The notes under the pieces: model-generated
Databases searched by the model: none
What the model was told of the DNA's origin: nothing
What the model saw: the letters and a program-made list of their open reading frames with translations, nothing else
Shown here: in pieces, positions 3,610-34,876 of the stretch
How the letters are laid out: every line of letters begins with the position of its first letter
Numbering within the stretch: the first letter of the stretch is position 1
Position numbers and translations under genes: made by a program
Virus record (IMG/VR): IMGVR_UViG_3300046455_000167
Coordinates: 1-36,912 of that record
DNA length: 36,912 bases
Origin: a virus
Direction: 5' to 3' (one strand)

Positions 3610-4055
3610 GGTGTTGGGGCTCCTGCCGTTGTGACTGTGATGTTGGTCTGGGCCGGCGCCACGTTGCAGGCGTCGATGTGGTCCTTCAGGGCCTTCTCGG
3701 TGCGGTTCACCGCGTCTGCCATCGAGGAGCCCGAGTTGGGGTGCATCTCGTGGTCTAGCTTGTCGATGATCGGGCCGTACTTCTCGAACCATAGATCGGT
3801 CTTGGTCTGGTGGCTCTCAGTAACCCTCTGGGAGACCTCGATGTTGCCTACTCGCGCCATCATCCCGGGCCTTGCCGGCACACCGGGGCGGGCTTCGTCT
3901 CCGTTCCAGTCCACGAGGAAGTGGTTGAGTCCCTTTGTCGGGGGCCTCAACCACTTCCATGCCGCCACGCTGGCAACTACGAGGATGAAGATGAACAGGA
4001 CGATGCCACCCATGACGGGCGAGACTGAGATGAGGTCACTAATCCACTGCGGCAT
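3606..4055 (-). CDS. Membrane protein, DUF2746-like, lysis cassette
   Basis: A 149-residue protein with one strong N-terminal transmembrane segment (about 14-36, GGIVLFIFILVVASVAAW), a short basic linker and a soluble C-terminal part that includes HEMHPNSGSSMADAVNRTEKAL, the pattern of the DUF2746 family found beside endolysin and holin genes in actinophages. The single anchor with a helical outer domain suggests a role in lysis, such as holin, antiholin or spanin-like protein, but this is unproved. Its stop overlaps the lysin GTG. Its ATG has only a weak Shine-Dalgarno and overlaps the stop of a 14-codon leader frame, so coupled translation is likely. Confidence 0.72.
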   Translation of the reverse strand: MPQWISDLISVSPVMGGIVLFIFILVVASVAAWKWLRPPTKGLNHFLVDWNGDEARPGVPARPGMMARVGNIEVSQRVTESHQTKTDLWFEKYGPIIDKLDHEMHPNSGSSMADAVNRTEKALKDHIDACNVAPAQTNITVTTAGAPTP

Positions 4056-4099
4056 CAGATGTCAGCCTTTGTGATGGACGTTTTCTGACGAGCAAGCAT
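4055..4099 (-). CDS. Possible 14-codon leader peptide before the lysis genes
   Basis: The frame MLARQKTSITKADI starts at an ATG six bases after a good AAGGGG Shine-Dalgarno, whereas the following DUF2746-like gene has a poor one. Its TGA overlaps that gene's ATG as TGATG. The combination points to translational coupling: ribosomes loaded on the leader would restart on the membrane protein. It is very short, so it may only be a loading device with no peptide function. Confidence 0.4.
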   Translation of the reverse strand: MLARQKTSITKADI

Positions 4100-4109
4100 T
4101 GTATTCCCC

Positions 4110-4142
4110 TTGGTAGAAAAGCGTATCTACCAACCAATTCTA
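4110..4142 (-). promoter_or_regulatory. Promoter-like box and stem-loop before the lysis cassette
   Basis: On the minus strand a TAGAAT box (4142-4137) is followed by an 8-base perfect stem, TTGGTAGA against TCTACCAA (4110-4133). The leader frame starts 11 bases further on. No -35 consensus is visible. The layout repeats that seen before the phosphoesterase operon and the tail chaperone gene. Confidence 0.45.
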
Positions 4143-4151
4143 CAGGGTGGC

Positions 4152-4745
4152 TTAGGTAGCGTAGTGGAGGGTGATCTGGAGCAGTGCGTCCTGCACTTTC
4201 AGGGAGCCAACGTGGTCCGTACCGAGGCCGCAGGTCAAGGCGATGATGTCTCCTGCGGTGAGGTAGCGGGTGTCTGAGGTACGCCCGCCTGAAAAGGCCT
4301 CTCCGGTTGTCCCATAGTCCGGGAGTCCGAAGGGGACGCCGTTGATGGAGCCGTAGAAGTCCCAGCTGTGGGGTGTCCCCACCTTCACAAAGGTGCATTG
4401 TCCTGTGAGGGTGTAGAGCCCATCGGTGAGGATTTTCGCCCTGTTGCCCTCGATTTCTATGCCCTCGGCGTGGTTGCCTTCAGCGAAGTCCGGCTCCGGT
4501 GCGCGTGAGTTGGTGACACCACCAACCGTGAGGGGAATCGTCATGTAGGCGGCACTGGGATCAGCTGCGGTGATGGTGAAGGGCTCCGGTGTGGTGGCAC
4601 GGAGGCTGATCTTTTCTTCCTGCTTCTTCAGCCGGGCACCGATGCCCTGGGATATGGAATCGGCCATAGCAGCAGACCACACCTCGGGGTCGAGGGTGTT
4701 GCCCTCATCGGGTGTTGCAATGCCGTCTTCGTTGATGTTAGACAT
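4152..4745 (-). CDS. Minor tail protein, probable receptor-binding tip
   Basis: A 197-residue protein. The first 50 residues are charged and helical (WSAAMADSISQGIGARLKKQEEKI) and could trimerise or attach to the tail; from about residue 60 to the end it is beta-rich with an alternating pattern (GLYTLTGQCTFV, SWDFYGSINGV, YLTAGDIIALTCG, LQITLHYAT) like the C1q/TNF-type jelly-roll heads found at the ends of phage fibres. It is the last gene of the tail operon, immediately after the large minor tail protein, which is the usual site of host-recognition proteins. Family membership is inferred from pattern; no exact match is claimed. Confidence 0.6.
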   Translation of the reverse strand: MSNINEDGIATPDEGNTLDPEVWSAAMADSISQGIGARLKKQEEKISLRATTPEPFTITAADPSAAYMTIPLTVGGVTNSRAPEPDFAEGNHAEGIEIEGNRAKILTDGLYTLTGQCTFVKVGTPHSWDFYGSINGVPFGLPDYGTTGEAFSGGRTSDTRYLTAGDIIALTCGLGTDHVGSLKVQDALLQITLHYAT

Positions 4746-6056: not shown

Positions 6057-9000
6057 GAGTTGCCTTTCAGGGGTTTGATGTTGAATTGCCGGATCGTGCG
6101 CCCGGCATGCCGGGCCTTCTCGTCCGCGATGGTGGCGCCGGGCGGGTAGCTGGCGACGTAGGCGCCGATAGTGGTGTGAGGCACCGCGTTGCCAGAAACC
6201 TTCGAGGCTGTCTGCTGGGCGTCCAGGATGCGGTAGTTGCGCGAGTTGTCCGTTACGAGGGTGCCGGCAGGGTACTGCCCGAGGCCGGTGGGGGTCTCGA
6301 AGGTGTTGGGCAGCTCGTAGCTCACCTCGGCCACGCTGGAGCTGTAGACCATCGCCATCGCCATCGCGGTGTCGTAGGTCTCCATCAGCCCTGCGATGAA
6401 CGGGGACTCGAACACGTTGTCGAAGCCCTCCCGGGCGTTCTTGGCCCCGGTGGGGATGTGGACCTCCTTGGGATCGTTGATGACGCCCGAGCCGGAGATG
6501 TAGAGCGCCGGCCTGTCAGCGGCACCCTCAGAGATGCGGTACGGAGCCCGCACGCTGTCCACTCGCGGCGCGGTGATCTTGATGGCGAGTTCGCCTTCCG
6601 TCTCGGTCAGTGACACCTCGACCTTGCCGCCGTTGTCCAGCCACCACTGCGGGGAGATGATGTAGCCGTCCGCGCCTGTCACCACGTACTGGCCGTCGCC
6701 CTTCTTGTAGGGGAAAGGCAGGATGCCGGGGACCGGGACGGGGTTGACCACGTTGCTGATGCTGTGGGTAGTCTGCACCGTGGTCTCGAACACCTCGCGG
6801 GAGTTGAGCTGGAACACGCTGTCCGCACGCCAGAGCACCGCGTCATCCGTGCTGACAGCCTTGGACTGCTTGTTGACCACGGCCACCTGCTTGTACTTCT
6901 CGCGGCGCTGGGAATCGGCGGTGAATGTGGCCCACGCCCCGGGGTGCGAGAGCTCGGTGATGCGGGGTGCGACGTGCATGGCGGCTCCGATGAATCGCAC
7001 GTCGAGCCGGGCAATGGAGCAGAACTCGGTGAGCATTTTCCAGACGTTGCCTTTGAACCCGGAGACAAACCCGAAGCTCTTGCCGGTCTGGGCGAGCACC
7101 TTCTGGACAGCCGGCAGCTCCATCGGGTGGCTGTCTGCCACCGTCAGGTACGTGCCCCAGCGGGTCATCTCGGCGCCGGAGCCTCCGGTCGAGATGTGCT
7201 GGAGAGACGTGAGCTTCAGGACACCGGGTAGCGCGTAGGCCACGGTCGCGGGTGCGCCGTCGTGCTCCAGTGTCCCGGCGCCGGCCAGATCGTCCGTGTG
7301 GGCGGTCAGCTTGACCGAGAGGGTGGTGGAGGTCAGGCGCTCCAAGGAAACTGTCAGGCGGTAGGCTGCTCCGCTGGGCACACTGGCTGAGGCGATGGTC
7401 GAGGAGCCGAGGTTGGCTGTGACCGTGCCGTCCGACTCGGCCTGCAGGGTTAGCGTGTGGGCGGCGTCCTTGGCATCCCGGAACCTCCACACAGCCTTGG
7501 CGGTGCGCCCGGAGCCGGCAAGACCCACGCCGATGCTGAACGCCAGCTTCTCCCCCAAAGCCAGGCTGAGGACAACCGCGCCGTCCTTCACCTCGTGCAA
7601 TGCCGTGGTTCCCGTGACAGCGGAACCGAAGGTTTTCACGGAACGCCCGTTGACCACCTGAGTGGTTGTGGCTCCTCCGGTGAGCTTTTCGGAGAAGCGG
7701 GCTGTGGTGCTCGCCCCGTAGGCGTCGGTGTGCCCGAAGCCGGAGGCGTAGGTGATGCACTCGCCGGGCACCTTGTCGTAGAACAGGCCTGCCTGCTGGG
7801 TCCAGTAGTCGATGGCCCGCGCAGCCGTCCACTTGCCTGGGTTAGGGTCGAGGAACGGGCGCAGGTGCATCTCAGTGTTCAGCGAGGTCAACGGGGTGTT
7901 CATGGAAACGCTGGCGTTGCCGCTGTTCGCCGGCAGGTTGAGACGGACAATCTCGCCCTCGTAGGTGCCGACAGCGCCGTTGCTCAGCACGTTGTTCTCG
8001 CCCAGAGCGAACTCGGGGTCGGTGCCCTTGACGTAGACCGCGCTGACAGACGGGGTGGAGCCCGAGCCCTCGGCAGGGTTCAGCGGAACCGCCGAGGTGC
8101 TGATCGTGAAGCTTGACAGCTTGCCCAGAGCGCCGGACTGCACGCTCTGGGAAGGCGCGGGAGGAAGGATCGTGGGCACACTGAAGGTGGAGGTCAGGGT
8201 GCCTGCGCCTGAGAACCCCGAGGCGATGTGGATGAGCCGCGCCAGGGTGGAGGAGAGTGAGCCGCTGGCGCTGAACGCGCTGGTGATGGTCCGGGCAGGC
8301 CGGGTCACTGCAGAGGACAGAGTGCCCGAGCCGGAGAAGCCCGACTGGATGTAGGAGCCAACGTGTGAGGTGAGCGAACCGCTGCCACCGAAGGCAGAAC
8401 TGATCGTCCGGGCCGATCGAGTCAGTGAGGAGCTGAGGTTGCCCGTGCCCGAGAGGCCCGAGCCGATGGTCCGCTCTCCGCGAGTCAGGGCCGAGGAGAG
8501 CGCACCGGAGCCACTGAGAGGCGAGGCAATCGTGCGCGGAGCACGGGCAAGCCCCGATGACAGCGTGCCGGTGCCGGACAGGGCCGAAGTGAACTTACGC
8601 CCAAGCTTGGAGGCAAGGGTGCCGCTACCGGACAGGGCAGAGGCAATGCTGCGAGCCGGGCGAGACAGGCTGCTACCCAGAGTGCCAGAGCCGGTGAATG
8701 AGGATGCAATGCTGCTTCCGGCAGTGCCTCCCACCATAACCTGGGATACATACGTGGTGCCCGTGCTTCGCTGGGCCGTGAAGGAGTGGGCCTCGCTGGT
8801 GGTAGGTGCCCGATACACCGTTCCCATGAACCGGGTATCGGTGGACATGCTGGTGGTCGTTTCCGTCCAGCCCGTGGAAGGGGTCGTAGCGGTGACGGAG
8901 TTGGCTGCAGAATCGGTGAAGCTGAACCCAAGCACGAGCTGCCCGGGGCCAGCTGTCTGTGTCGGCGTGGTCTTCGCGCCCGTTCCGAATGTGGACACGC

Positions 9001-33302: not shown

Positions 33303-33905
33303 CTATGCAGCTGCCTTTTCCGCGTTCCAGCTGAGCAGTTTCGGCAGGTTGATGTCGGGGCCGAACACCAGGAAGGTGCCGTCTACGCTGTCACAGCCGA
33401 TGGACTCGGCGTAGTCGAACCGCTTCTTGGAGTTGACCCGGCCCATGTGGACGTACATGCCCCGCCGCTTGGCCTCGGCCACTATCTCGCGCACCGCCGG
33501 CCCGAGCTTCCAGTCCGTGGAGCCTCCGATGAACAGGGCGTCGAACTCTTCCCACGGAATCTCCAGGTCTTCGAGCCCGTCCTGTGCCACGAGGGCTGCC
33601 GGATAGCCCATTGCCCGGATCATCGGGAGGAAGGGGCGGGACCGTTCGAGCGTGGCCACGGCATCCCCCACCACATCGGGCGCCGTGGCGAACAGGCAGC
33701 GCTCGGCGTCATGGGCGTGCTTGGCCAGCCACGCCAGCCACTTCTCATCCCCCGGGTAGCCCTTGCCGAAGCAGCCGTTGTCGGCACACCAGATCACTCC
33801 CTCGGGGCGGATTCGGCGCTGTGCCGGGGTGTCGATGAAGCCCAGCACTTCCTTCTGCATCGCGTCGATGACAGCGGGGCCGCACGGGTTCGCTATATAG
33901 AGCAC
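33303..33905 (-). CDS. dpdA: TGT/DpdA-like transglycosylase (7-deazaguanine insertion)
   Basis: A 200-residue TIM-barrel-type protein with queuine tRNA-guanine transglycosylase (TGT) motifs in order: DNGCF (42-46) at the DSGGF place, APDVVGD (D77), VAQDG (Q108) at the IVQGG place, FIGGSTDW (126-132) for the GGLAVGE loop, and HMGRVNS...GCDSVDGTF (D172 or D175) where TGT has its nucleophilic aspartate. It is much shorter than bacterial tRNA TGT (about 370), like phage DpdA proteins that place 7-deazaguanines in DNA. Start GTG 33905, overlapping the QueF-like gene by 13 bases, so the two are coupled. tRNA as a target cannot be excluded. Confidence 0.75.
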   Translation of the reverse strand: MLYIANPCGPAVIDAMQKEVLGFIDTPAQRRIRPEGVIWCADNGCFGKGYPGDEKWLAWLAKHAHDAERCLFATAPDVVGDAVATLERSRPFLPMIRAMGYPAALVAQDGLEDLEIPWEEFDALFIGGSTDWKLGPAVREIVAEAKRRGMYVHMGRVNSKKRFDYAESIGCDSVDGTFLVFGPDINLPKLLSWNAEKAAA

Positions 33906-34321
33906 GTCACCGACATACCGGCGGTGTCCCAGCTGGACTCAACACTGAGGATTTCGACCAGCATGTCCCCGTGGGCGAAGGTGTCTCGGAGGTGGCCGGT
34001 GAACTCCTCGTGGCTGACCTCGACCTCGCCCCACTGGTCCATGAAGGCGTCGAGGTGGCGGCGCAGGGAGTGGAGCTCGAAGGTCCGGCCCTTGGTCAGC
34101 CAGGTGACTGTGACCGTGCCCTCGTCATTCTCCTTGACGAATGGGCAGAGGTGTCGTGCCGGTGCAGTGGCAGACAGGGTGAGCCCAGCCGGGGCTCCTA
34201 CCGTGACAAAGCTCATTGGGCTCTCCTTGTGGATGATGCAGCGGGGGTCTTGGGCCTCGTGTGTCGGCAGACCCATCCGGCAGGCCGGGCAACGCGGCCC
34301 TACATCCGGGTTGGGGCTCAT
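33893..34321 (-). CDS. QueF-like protein (preQ0 processing)
   Basis: From the SD-preceded ATG at 34216 the core is 107 residues: HLCPFVKENDEG gives the QueF catalytic Cys and, seven residues on, Asp (C24, D31), as in CPVTGQPD of bacterial QueF; FELHSLRRHL stands at the QueF motif, with its Glu (E47); SHEE gives the substrate His-Glu pair (H69, E70). The NADPH-binding lysines of true reductases (ESKSLK) are changed, so a QueF-like amidinotransferase or nitrile-modifying role is as likely as reduction to preQ1. A longer form from ATG 34321, coupled to the transporter stop, adds 35 residues with CPAC...C. Either start is possible. Confidence 0.7.
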   Translation of the reverse strand: MSPNPDVGPRCPACRMGLPTHEAQDPRCIIHKESPMSFVTVGAPAGLTLSATAPARHLCPFVKENDEGTVTVTWLTKGRTFELHSLRRHLDAFMDQWGEVEVSHEEFTGHLRDTFAHGDMLVEILSVESSWDTAGMSVTCSI

Positions 34322-34842
34322 GCTGCCACCGCCACGCGGTTGCGCCGAGCGGCCCGGACTCCCACGACGGCTGCCACAGCCACAGCGGTGACGAGCAGTT
34401 TGCCCACCATCTGGCCGGGGAGGGCTGCCCACAGCGGGAATCCTGCGATGGTCAGGAACACTACGGTGTCGATGACTGCTCCGACGATGTTGGAGGCCAG
34501 GGCTGCCCGGATGTAGCCGCGCTTGCGGAGCGGGGTGTAGACGGCAAGGTCCGCGAGTTCGGCCAGTCCGAAGGCAGCTGCGGAGGCGAGGGCGATAAAC
34601 GGGTCAGCGACCAGGAAGGAGAGCAGGGCTCCTGCTGCGATGACCGCGAGCGTCCACCGCTTGCCTGCCGCGTCCTGCAGGGCATCGCGGAGGATGAAGG
34701 TCATGCCGGCGAAATAGGTGCCGGCTGTGGCGACGAGGCCAAAACCTACAGGGACCATGCCCAGCTGCGAGGTGACGACGTTTGCGGCGAGGATGCAGCC
34801 TAGGAAGGTTGCGGCGATGACGGGGGCGAGACGGTAGTTCAT
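34318..34842 (-). CDS. VUT/YhhQ-like queuosine-precursor transporter
   Basis: A 174-residue integral membrane protein with about six hydrophobic segments (near 5-22, 33-52, 64-80, 82-98, 112-134, 145-163). ANVVTSQLG, ILRDALQDAAGKR and FGLAELADLAVYTPLRKRG...ASNIVGAVIDTVVFL match the VUT (DUF165, YhhQ) family, which imports preQ0/preQ1-type 7-deazaguanines. It starts at ATG 34842 with AAAGGAG and heads the operon with the QueF-like and TGT/DpdA-like genes (ATGA overlap). Its presence suggests the phage salvages its modified base rather than making it. Confidence 0.78.
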   Translation of the reverse strand: MNYRLAPVIAATFLGCILAANVVTSQLGMVPVGFGLVATAGTYFAGMTFILRDALQDAAGKRWTLAVIAAGALLSFLVADPFIALASAAAFGLAELADLAVYTPLRKRGYIRAALASNIVGAVIDTVVFLTIAGFPLWAALPGQMVGKLLVTAVAVAAVVGVRAARRNRVAVAA

Positions 34843-34876
34843 GGGGCTCCTTTGTTGGTGTGTGTTGCTGTAGTGC

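Follow-up and report, generated by a model that had tools for sequence, protein, structure and literature searches.

Phages such as 9g, CAjan, Rosebush and Dp-1 carry DpdA, a transglycosylase proposed to exchange guanine for preQ0 in DNA, and the DNA of Dp-1 and HVTV-1 holds dPreQ1 (PMC6884629). In the same study, Hutinet et al. suggested preQ0 uptake for phages that have DpdA only, noted YhhQ in some phages with no correlation with any group, and reported that the DNA of one DpdA-only phage, Orion, was unmodified in a host that does not make preQ0. They also found it difficult to tell viral QueF from QueF-L by sequence similarity alone, and the product predicted from the QueF-L labels once given to two viruses was wrong (PMC6884629). 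QueF-L itself reacts with free preQ0 as far as the thioimide; turnover with ammonia requires that the preQ0 be polynucleotide-bound (PMC5485725). Escherichia coli YhhQ/QPTR is a preQ0 transporter (PMC5372724), in a family whose members vary in substrate (PMC11130926). Here we describe a phage locus in which three small genes with affinities to these families lie next to each other, and we think it likely that together they provide a salvage-type 7-deazaguanine modification of DNA.

The window (the whole stretch of DNA analyzed, 36,912 bases) is the entire virus record IMGVR_UViG_3300046455_000167, which also encodes portal, terminase and tail genes, a serine integrase and a tRNA-Ser. DNA comparison of its right end with Arthrobacter phages gave short matches only; our guess, made from its relatives, is a phage of soil actinobacteria with Arthrobacter as the probable host. 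The three genes are closely spaced on the minus strand (34842-33303), and on re-reading the coordinates of the original prediction were correct. First comes a VUT/YhhQ-type membrane protein of 174 aa (34318..34842), preceded by the ribosome-binding site AAAGGAG (34847..34853). The QueF-L-like gene that follows has two possible starts. An ATGA at 34321 would overlap the VUT gene by 4 nt and add a 35-aa N-terminal extension with a CxxC...CxxH pattern (34217..34321), which may instead be a small separate peptide and had no match in Pfam. The ATG at 34216 lies after an AAGGAG ribosome-binding site (34223..34228), is the same start as that of the relatives, and is separated from the VUT gene by about 100 nt; read from the sequence, it is the more likely start, giving a protein of 107 aa (33893..34216). 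The last gene encodes a transglycosylase-like (TGT-like) protein of 200 aa (33303..33905), whose GTG start lies within the QueF-like gene, so that the two overlap by 13 nt. The three genes had been described as overlapping, which is right for the last two and depends on the choice of start codon for the first two. Neither a promoter nor a terminator pattern was found, and the spacing suggests that the genes may share a single transcript.

The TGT-like protein belongs to phrog_15826 (9e-90), a family of unknown function. Phage DpdA is phrog_887, and a full-size DpdA (about 300 aa) would be expected in phrog_887 or phrog_7068, neither of which this protein joins. Direct searches were unrewarding: there was no usable match in Pfam, NCBIfam or PADLOC, including none to the Pfam TGT family (PF01702), and weak EAL matches were taken as a common TIM-barrel signal. 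A HMMER search of PDB with the family profile recovered no TGT, but because a canonical phage DpdA profile failed likewise this test is uninformative, and profile-profile comparison was used instead. Against 13 phage DpdA proteins the family profile gave P=2.9e-6, and with 60 members P=3.4e-7 (score 54), whereas 40 column-shuffled DpdA profiles reached a maximum score of 20, the reversed profile 12, and canonical actinobacterial TGT 13. The two families align in register at ADNGCF/DSGAF, PDVVGDA/LDxIGD and IGGS/IGGM, and two further pairs, HMGRVNS with HGFGxTS and CDSVDGT with YSVDSSS, were matched by eye. The predicted structure is a confident TIM barrel (pLDDT 93.4) for which Foldseek lists DpdA (7ui4) and TGT, but under unrelated TIM barrels, so the fold alone is not specific. 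The TGT motifs named in the original prediction are present and conserved among the relatives, as are the catalytic residues. On the evidence of these profiles we take the protein for a miniature relative of phage DpdA, as the DpdA-like assignment had it, and not for a member of the Pfam TGT family.

This distinction bears on whether the cassette acts on DNA at all. Archaeal QueF-L and TGT work on tRNA (PMC5485725), and the nucleic acid substrate of the TGT-like protein is assigned from its sequence; action on tRNA or another RNA, perhaps as a way of adjusting translation in the infected cell, would be in keeping with both. The protein nevertheless aligns with phage DpdA, whereas canonical TGT gives no alignment (profile-profile P=0.4-0.5), it has 200 aa as against about 390 for the aligned TGTs, and some of its relatives without a VUT gene lie near DNA methylase genes. 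We therefore regard an RNA target as very unlikely.

Several members of the TGT-like family have peculiarities of their own. Arthrobacter phage Sonali (L003) encodes a short TGT-like protein (gene 81, 4001-4618) as well as a DpdA-type protein of full size, whose gene 87 adjoins the QueC gene 88 (6988-8585), which suggests that the roles of the two may differ. Escherichia phage phiG7 (L007) likewise has a full-size DpdA, and its short TGT-like relative (3935-4527) is split over two overlapping frames, through a frameshift, a sequencing error or decay. The TGT-like proteins of four loci (L026, L029, L030 and L035) contain a zinc-ribbon-like insert with two CxxC pairs between IGGS and EWKLG.

The middle protein bears on what base the cassette would make. 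On its own it falls under the cut-off for Pfam QueF (E=0.1-0.3), and all eight of its aligned relatives match at E<=1, the strongest at 3e-8. A 10-member profile places the Pyrobaculum calidifontis QueF-L (5jyx) first at 9.5e-7 and QueF next at 3e-4, and with the predicted structure (pLDDT 93.7) the best Foldseek matches are the QueF-L structures 5k0p and 5jyx; its closest solved relative is thus QueF-L by both sequence profile and predicted fold. A joint alignment of 11 family members shows Cys24, Asp31, Glu47, His69 and Glu70 kept in every one, among them the Cys and Asp with which QueF-L forms and processes the thioimide, so that the Cys-x6-Asp pair and His-Glu recognized at the outset are genuine family features. 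GTP cyclohydrolase I was considered and rejected as an identity, its profile match being weaker (0.01) and the Cys/Asp/His-Glu set being that of QueF.

What sets this family apart from the QueF reductases is the loss of two residues. The Lys of the NADPH motif is replaced by His49 and the Arg of the RGG motif by Ala99 in 11/11 members, none of which carries the nitrile reductase signature E[SL]K[SA]xK plus RGG, while both residues are retained in the 4 bacterial and 6 phage or viral QueFs compared, including those of Dp-1 and HVTV-1. Together with the QueF-L matches, this backs the earlier suggestion that the degraded NADPH motif points to archaeosine-type chemistry. The family is not simply QueF-L, because it retains Glu47, which QueF-L has lost, and it has features of its own in the invariant His49 and a WxTA motif. 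The retention of Glu47, and usually of Ser50, would also be expected if the protein were a reductase after all and the same cassette made dPreQ1 as in Dp-1 and HVTV-1, and there is a precedent in that viruses predicted to have QueF-L proved to contain dPreQ1 (PMC6884629). However, those two viruses keep precisely the motif Lys and RGG Arg that every member of the present family has lost, and the nearest solved structure is QueF-L, which makes a dPreQ1 product unlikely. In the QueF homologues of Arthrobacter phage Mufasa8 (L122) and Mycobacterium phage Funsized (L123) the NADPH motif is kept and a Cys stands at the expected active-site His (GISCEEL).

The assignment of the first gene is straightforward. 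The membrane protein matches Pfam Vut_1 (PF02592) with E 2.8e-12 and 47.7 bits against a curated cut-off of 27.2, which bears out its description as VUT/YhhQ-type, and it belongs to phrog_4899. We propose from this family membership that it may be a preQ0 importer. Salvage with no need for queC/D/E had been predicted, and searches of the window record gave no match to QueC, QueD, FolE or radical-SAM proteins and did not find QueE, in a record that may be a fragment. Full-length QueC was present in 1 of 59 genomes of Microbacterium's order. Among 22 genomes bearing a TGT-like gene, QueC was strong in 4 and a weaker full-length match in 1, and canonical TGT was found in 2. Import of preQ0 fits this absence of biosynthesis genes, and we assign it to the VUT protein on the view that preQ0 is probably made neither by the phage nor by its likely host. 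Cellulomonas sp. KH9 has, within 6 kb (G002:C2:306113-312071) and away from its short TGT-like locus (L049), a second VUT gene together with a full-length QueC and a frame of 443 aa that gives a TGT-related match.

The gene set is not confined to this phage. Searches with the short TGT-like protein covered phages (24 records), viral contigs (30 loci) and bacterial genome contigs (28 loci, mainly from actinobacteria, plus a few from Chloroflexota), and 64 loci were compared once known duplicates had been removed. Some of these are closely related, so that the following counts are not independent events: the full VUT, QueF-like, TGT order occurs in 10; VUT lies just upstream of TGT with no QueF-like gene in 29, in many cases with an overlap of about 28 nt; a VUT gene is thus directly upstream of a TGT-like or QueF-like gene in 39; one has the QueF-like and TGT-like genes without VUT; 22 have neither; and two start too near a contig end to judge. 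For the viral loci, single-sequence search as well as alignment found the VUT neighbours; two rows of the VUT alignment (L012 and L030) are out of frame. Relatives of the QueF-like protein in viral contigs were found with an alignment query, a single-sequence query having confirmed none, and every match to the family adjoins a TGT-like gene, except one on a contig that ends after the VUT gene (L039). The trio is also present in a bacterial assembly, on a Nocardia farcinica contig (L048). Because the order recurs in 10 loci and VUT is upstream of TGT in 29 others, the association of the three genes goes beyond chance.

The 22 loci that lack VUT call for a different explanation. Several of them are in genomes that have neither QueC nor VUT, so the TGT-like family may use another substrate. 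It could be that the family handles a different base, with VUT and the QueF-like gene as optional partners, or that the cassette does nothing when the host has no preQ0, for which the unmodified DNA of Orion offers a parallel (PMC6884629). Weighing on the other side, the same TGT-like gene is linked to two families, VUT and QueF/QueF-L, that each have to do with 7-deazaguanines, and its catalytic residues are conserved; we consider either version rather unlikely for the window. Some of the loci without VUT have other neighbours. In the only pair of QueF-like and TGT-like genes without VUT (L010/L040) a single-strand-binding-like gene lies upstream instead; L054, L065 and L071 are near C5 cytosine methylase genes and L061 is near a D12 adenine methylase gene; and a PAPS-reductase-like gene is directly upstream of the TGT-like gene in L065 and nearby in ReqiPine5 and R6L.

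Returning to salvage of preQ0, we infer a substrate for the transporter, a DNA target, an order of steps, a final base and a protective role as follows. Free preQ0 from the surroundings would be brought in by the VUT protein, and the miniature DpdA-like transglycosylase would swap guanine in the phage DNA for it. Once preQ0 is in the DNA, its nitrile would be attacked by Cys24 of the QueF-L-like protein. Ammonia would resolve the resulting thioimide to the amidine deoxyarchaeosine (dG+), or water might resolve it to the amide (dADG); hydride from NADPH would play no part. Phage DNA modified in this way would withstand the restriction enzymes of the host. The original prediction had the nitrile modified before the exchange into DNA; we reverse that order, since turnover of polynucleotide-bound and not of free preQ0 by P. 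calidifontis QueF-L, the nearest characterized relative (PMC5485725), makes insertion first and conversion second more likely. For this reading in full, a salvage cassette whose product is not reduced and is made once the base is in DNA, we hold a slight preference. More tentatively, and with rather less confidence than even odds would carry, we hypothesize that a viral enzyme of QueF-L type without NADPH residues makes deoxyarchaeosine on DNA from preQ0 scavenged through an importer, and that protection depends on preQ0 from neighbouring soil organisms and is absent where the base is absent.

The 'DpdA-like' annotation, already given to the homologues in Aoka, Sonali and GreaseLightnin, and the idea of preQ0 uptake (PMC6884629) were already known. 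What is added here is that VUT is tightly linked to a single short DpdA-related family, and that the same cassette contains a QueF-L-like enzyme lacking the NADPH residues. If our reading is true, a phage DNA modification hinges on an environmental nutrient, and restriction resistance could therefore vary with the microbial neighbourhood; the cassette would also supply, for work on DNA, a transglycosylase of minimal size (200 aa) and a small enzyme that converts nitriles. The retention or loss of the motif Lys and RGG Arg provides a testable rule for telling preQ1-making QueF from QueF-L in viruses.

Each component can be set against a described counterpart. The phage VUT shares the Vut_1 family with E. 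coli YhhQ/QPTR (PMC5372724), but it is short and its preQ0 substrate is only putative. Relative to the DpdA systems of 9g, CAjan, Rosebush and Dp-1 (PMC6884629), which have a related transglycosylase, the window differs in the length (200 versus about 300 aa) and family (phrog_15826 versus 887) of that protein, in that preQ0 biosynthesis genes were not found, and in the importer that adjoins it. The P. calidifontis archaeosine synthase QueF-L (5jyx, PMC5485725) has its size, T-fold, Cys, Asp and His-Glu in common with the QueF-like protein, and both lack the NADPH residues; the QueF-like protein differs in being viral, in keeping Glu47 and having the invariant His49 and WxTA, and in its proposed substrate, DNA where that of QueF-L is tRNA. 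The QueF nitrile reductases of Dp-1, HVTV-1, phiSM, Mufasa8 and Funsized belong to the same superfamily and have the same catalytic Cys and Asp, but they retain the Lys and Arg that the window family is without, and in Mufasa8, Funsized and phiSM the QueF gene is grouped with preQ0 biosynthesis genes. All three genes are matched in Arthrobacter phage Aoka (ON755180), where genes 38-39-40 are the same trio in the same order, with 70% identity in the TGT-like and 43% in the QueF-like protein. They are annotated as a membrane protein, a hypothetical protein and a DpdA-like transglycosylase, with no role given to the QueF-like gene, and because Aoka is an isolate with a laboratory Arthrobacter strain as its host, the idea can be tested directly in it.
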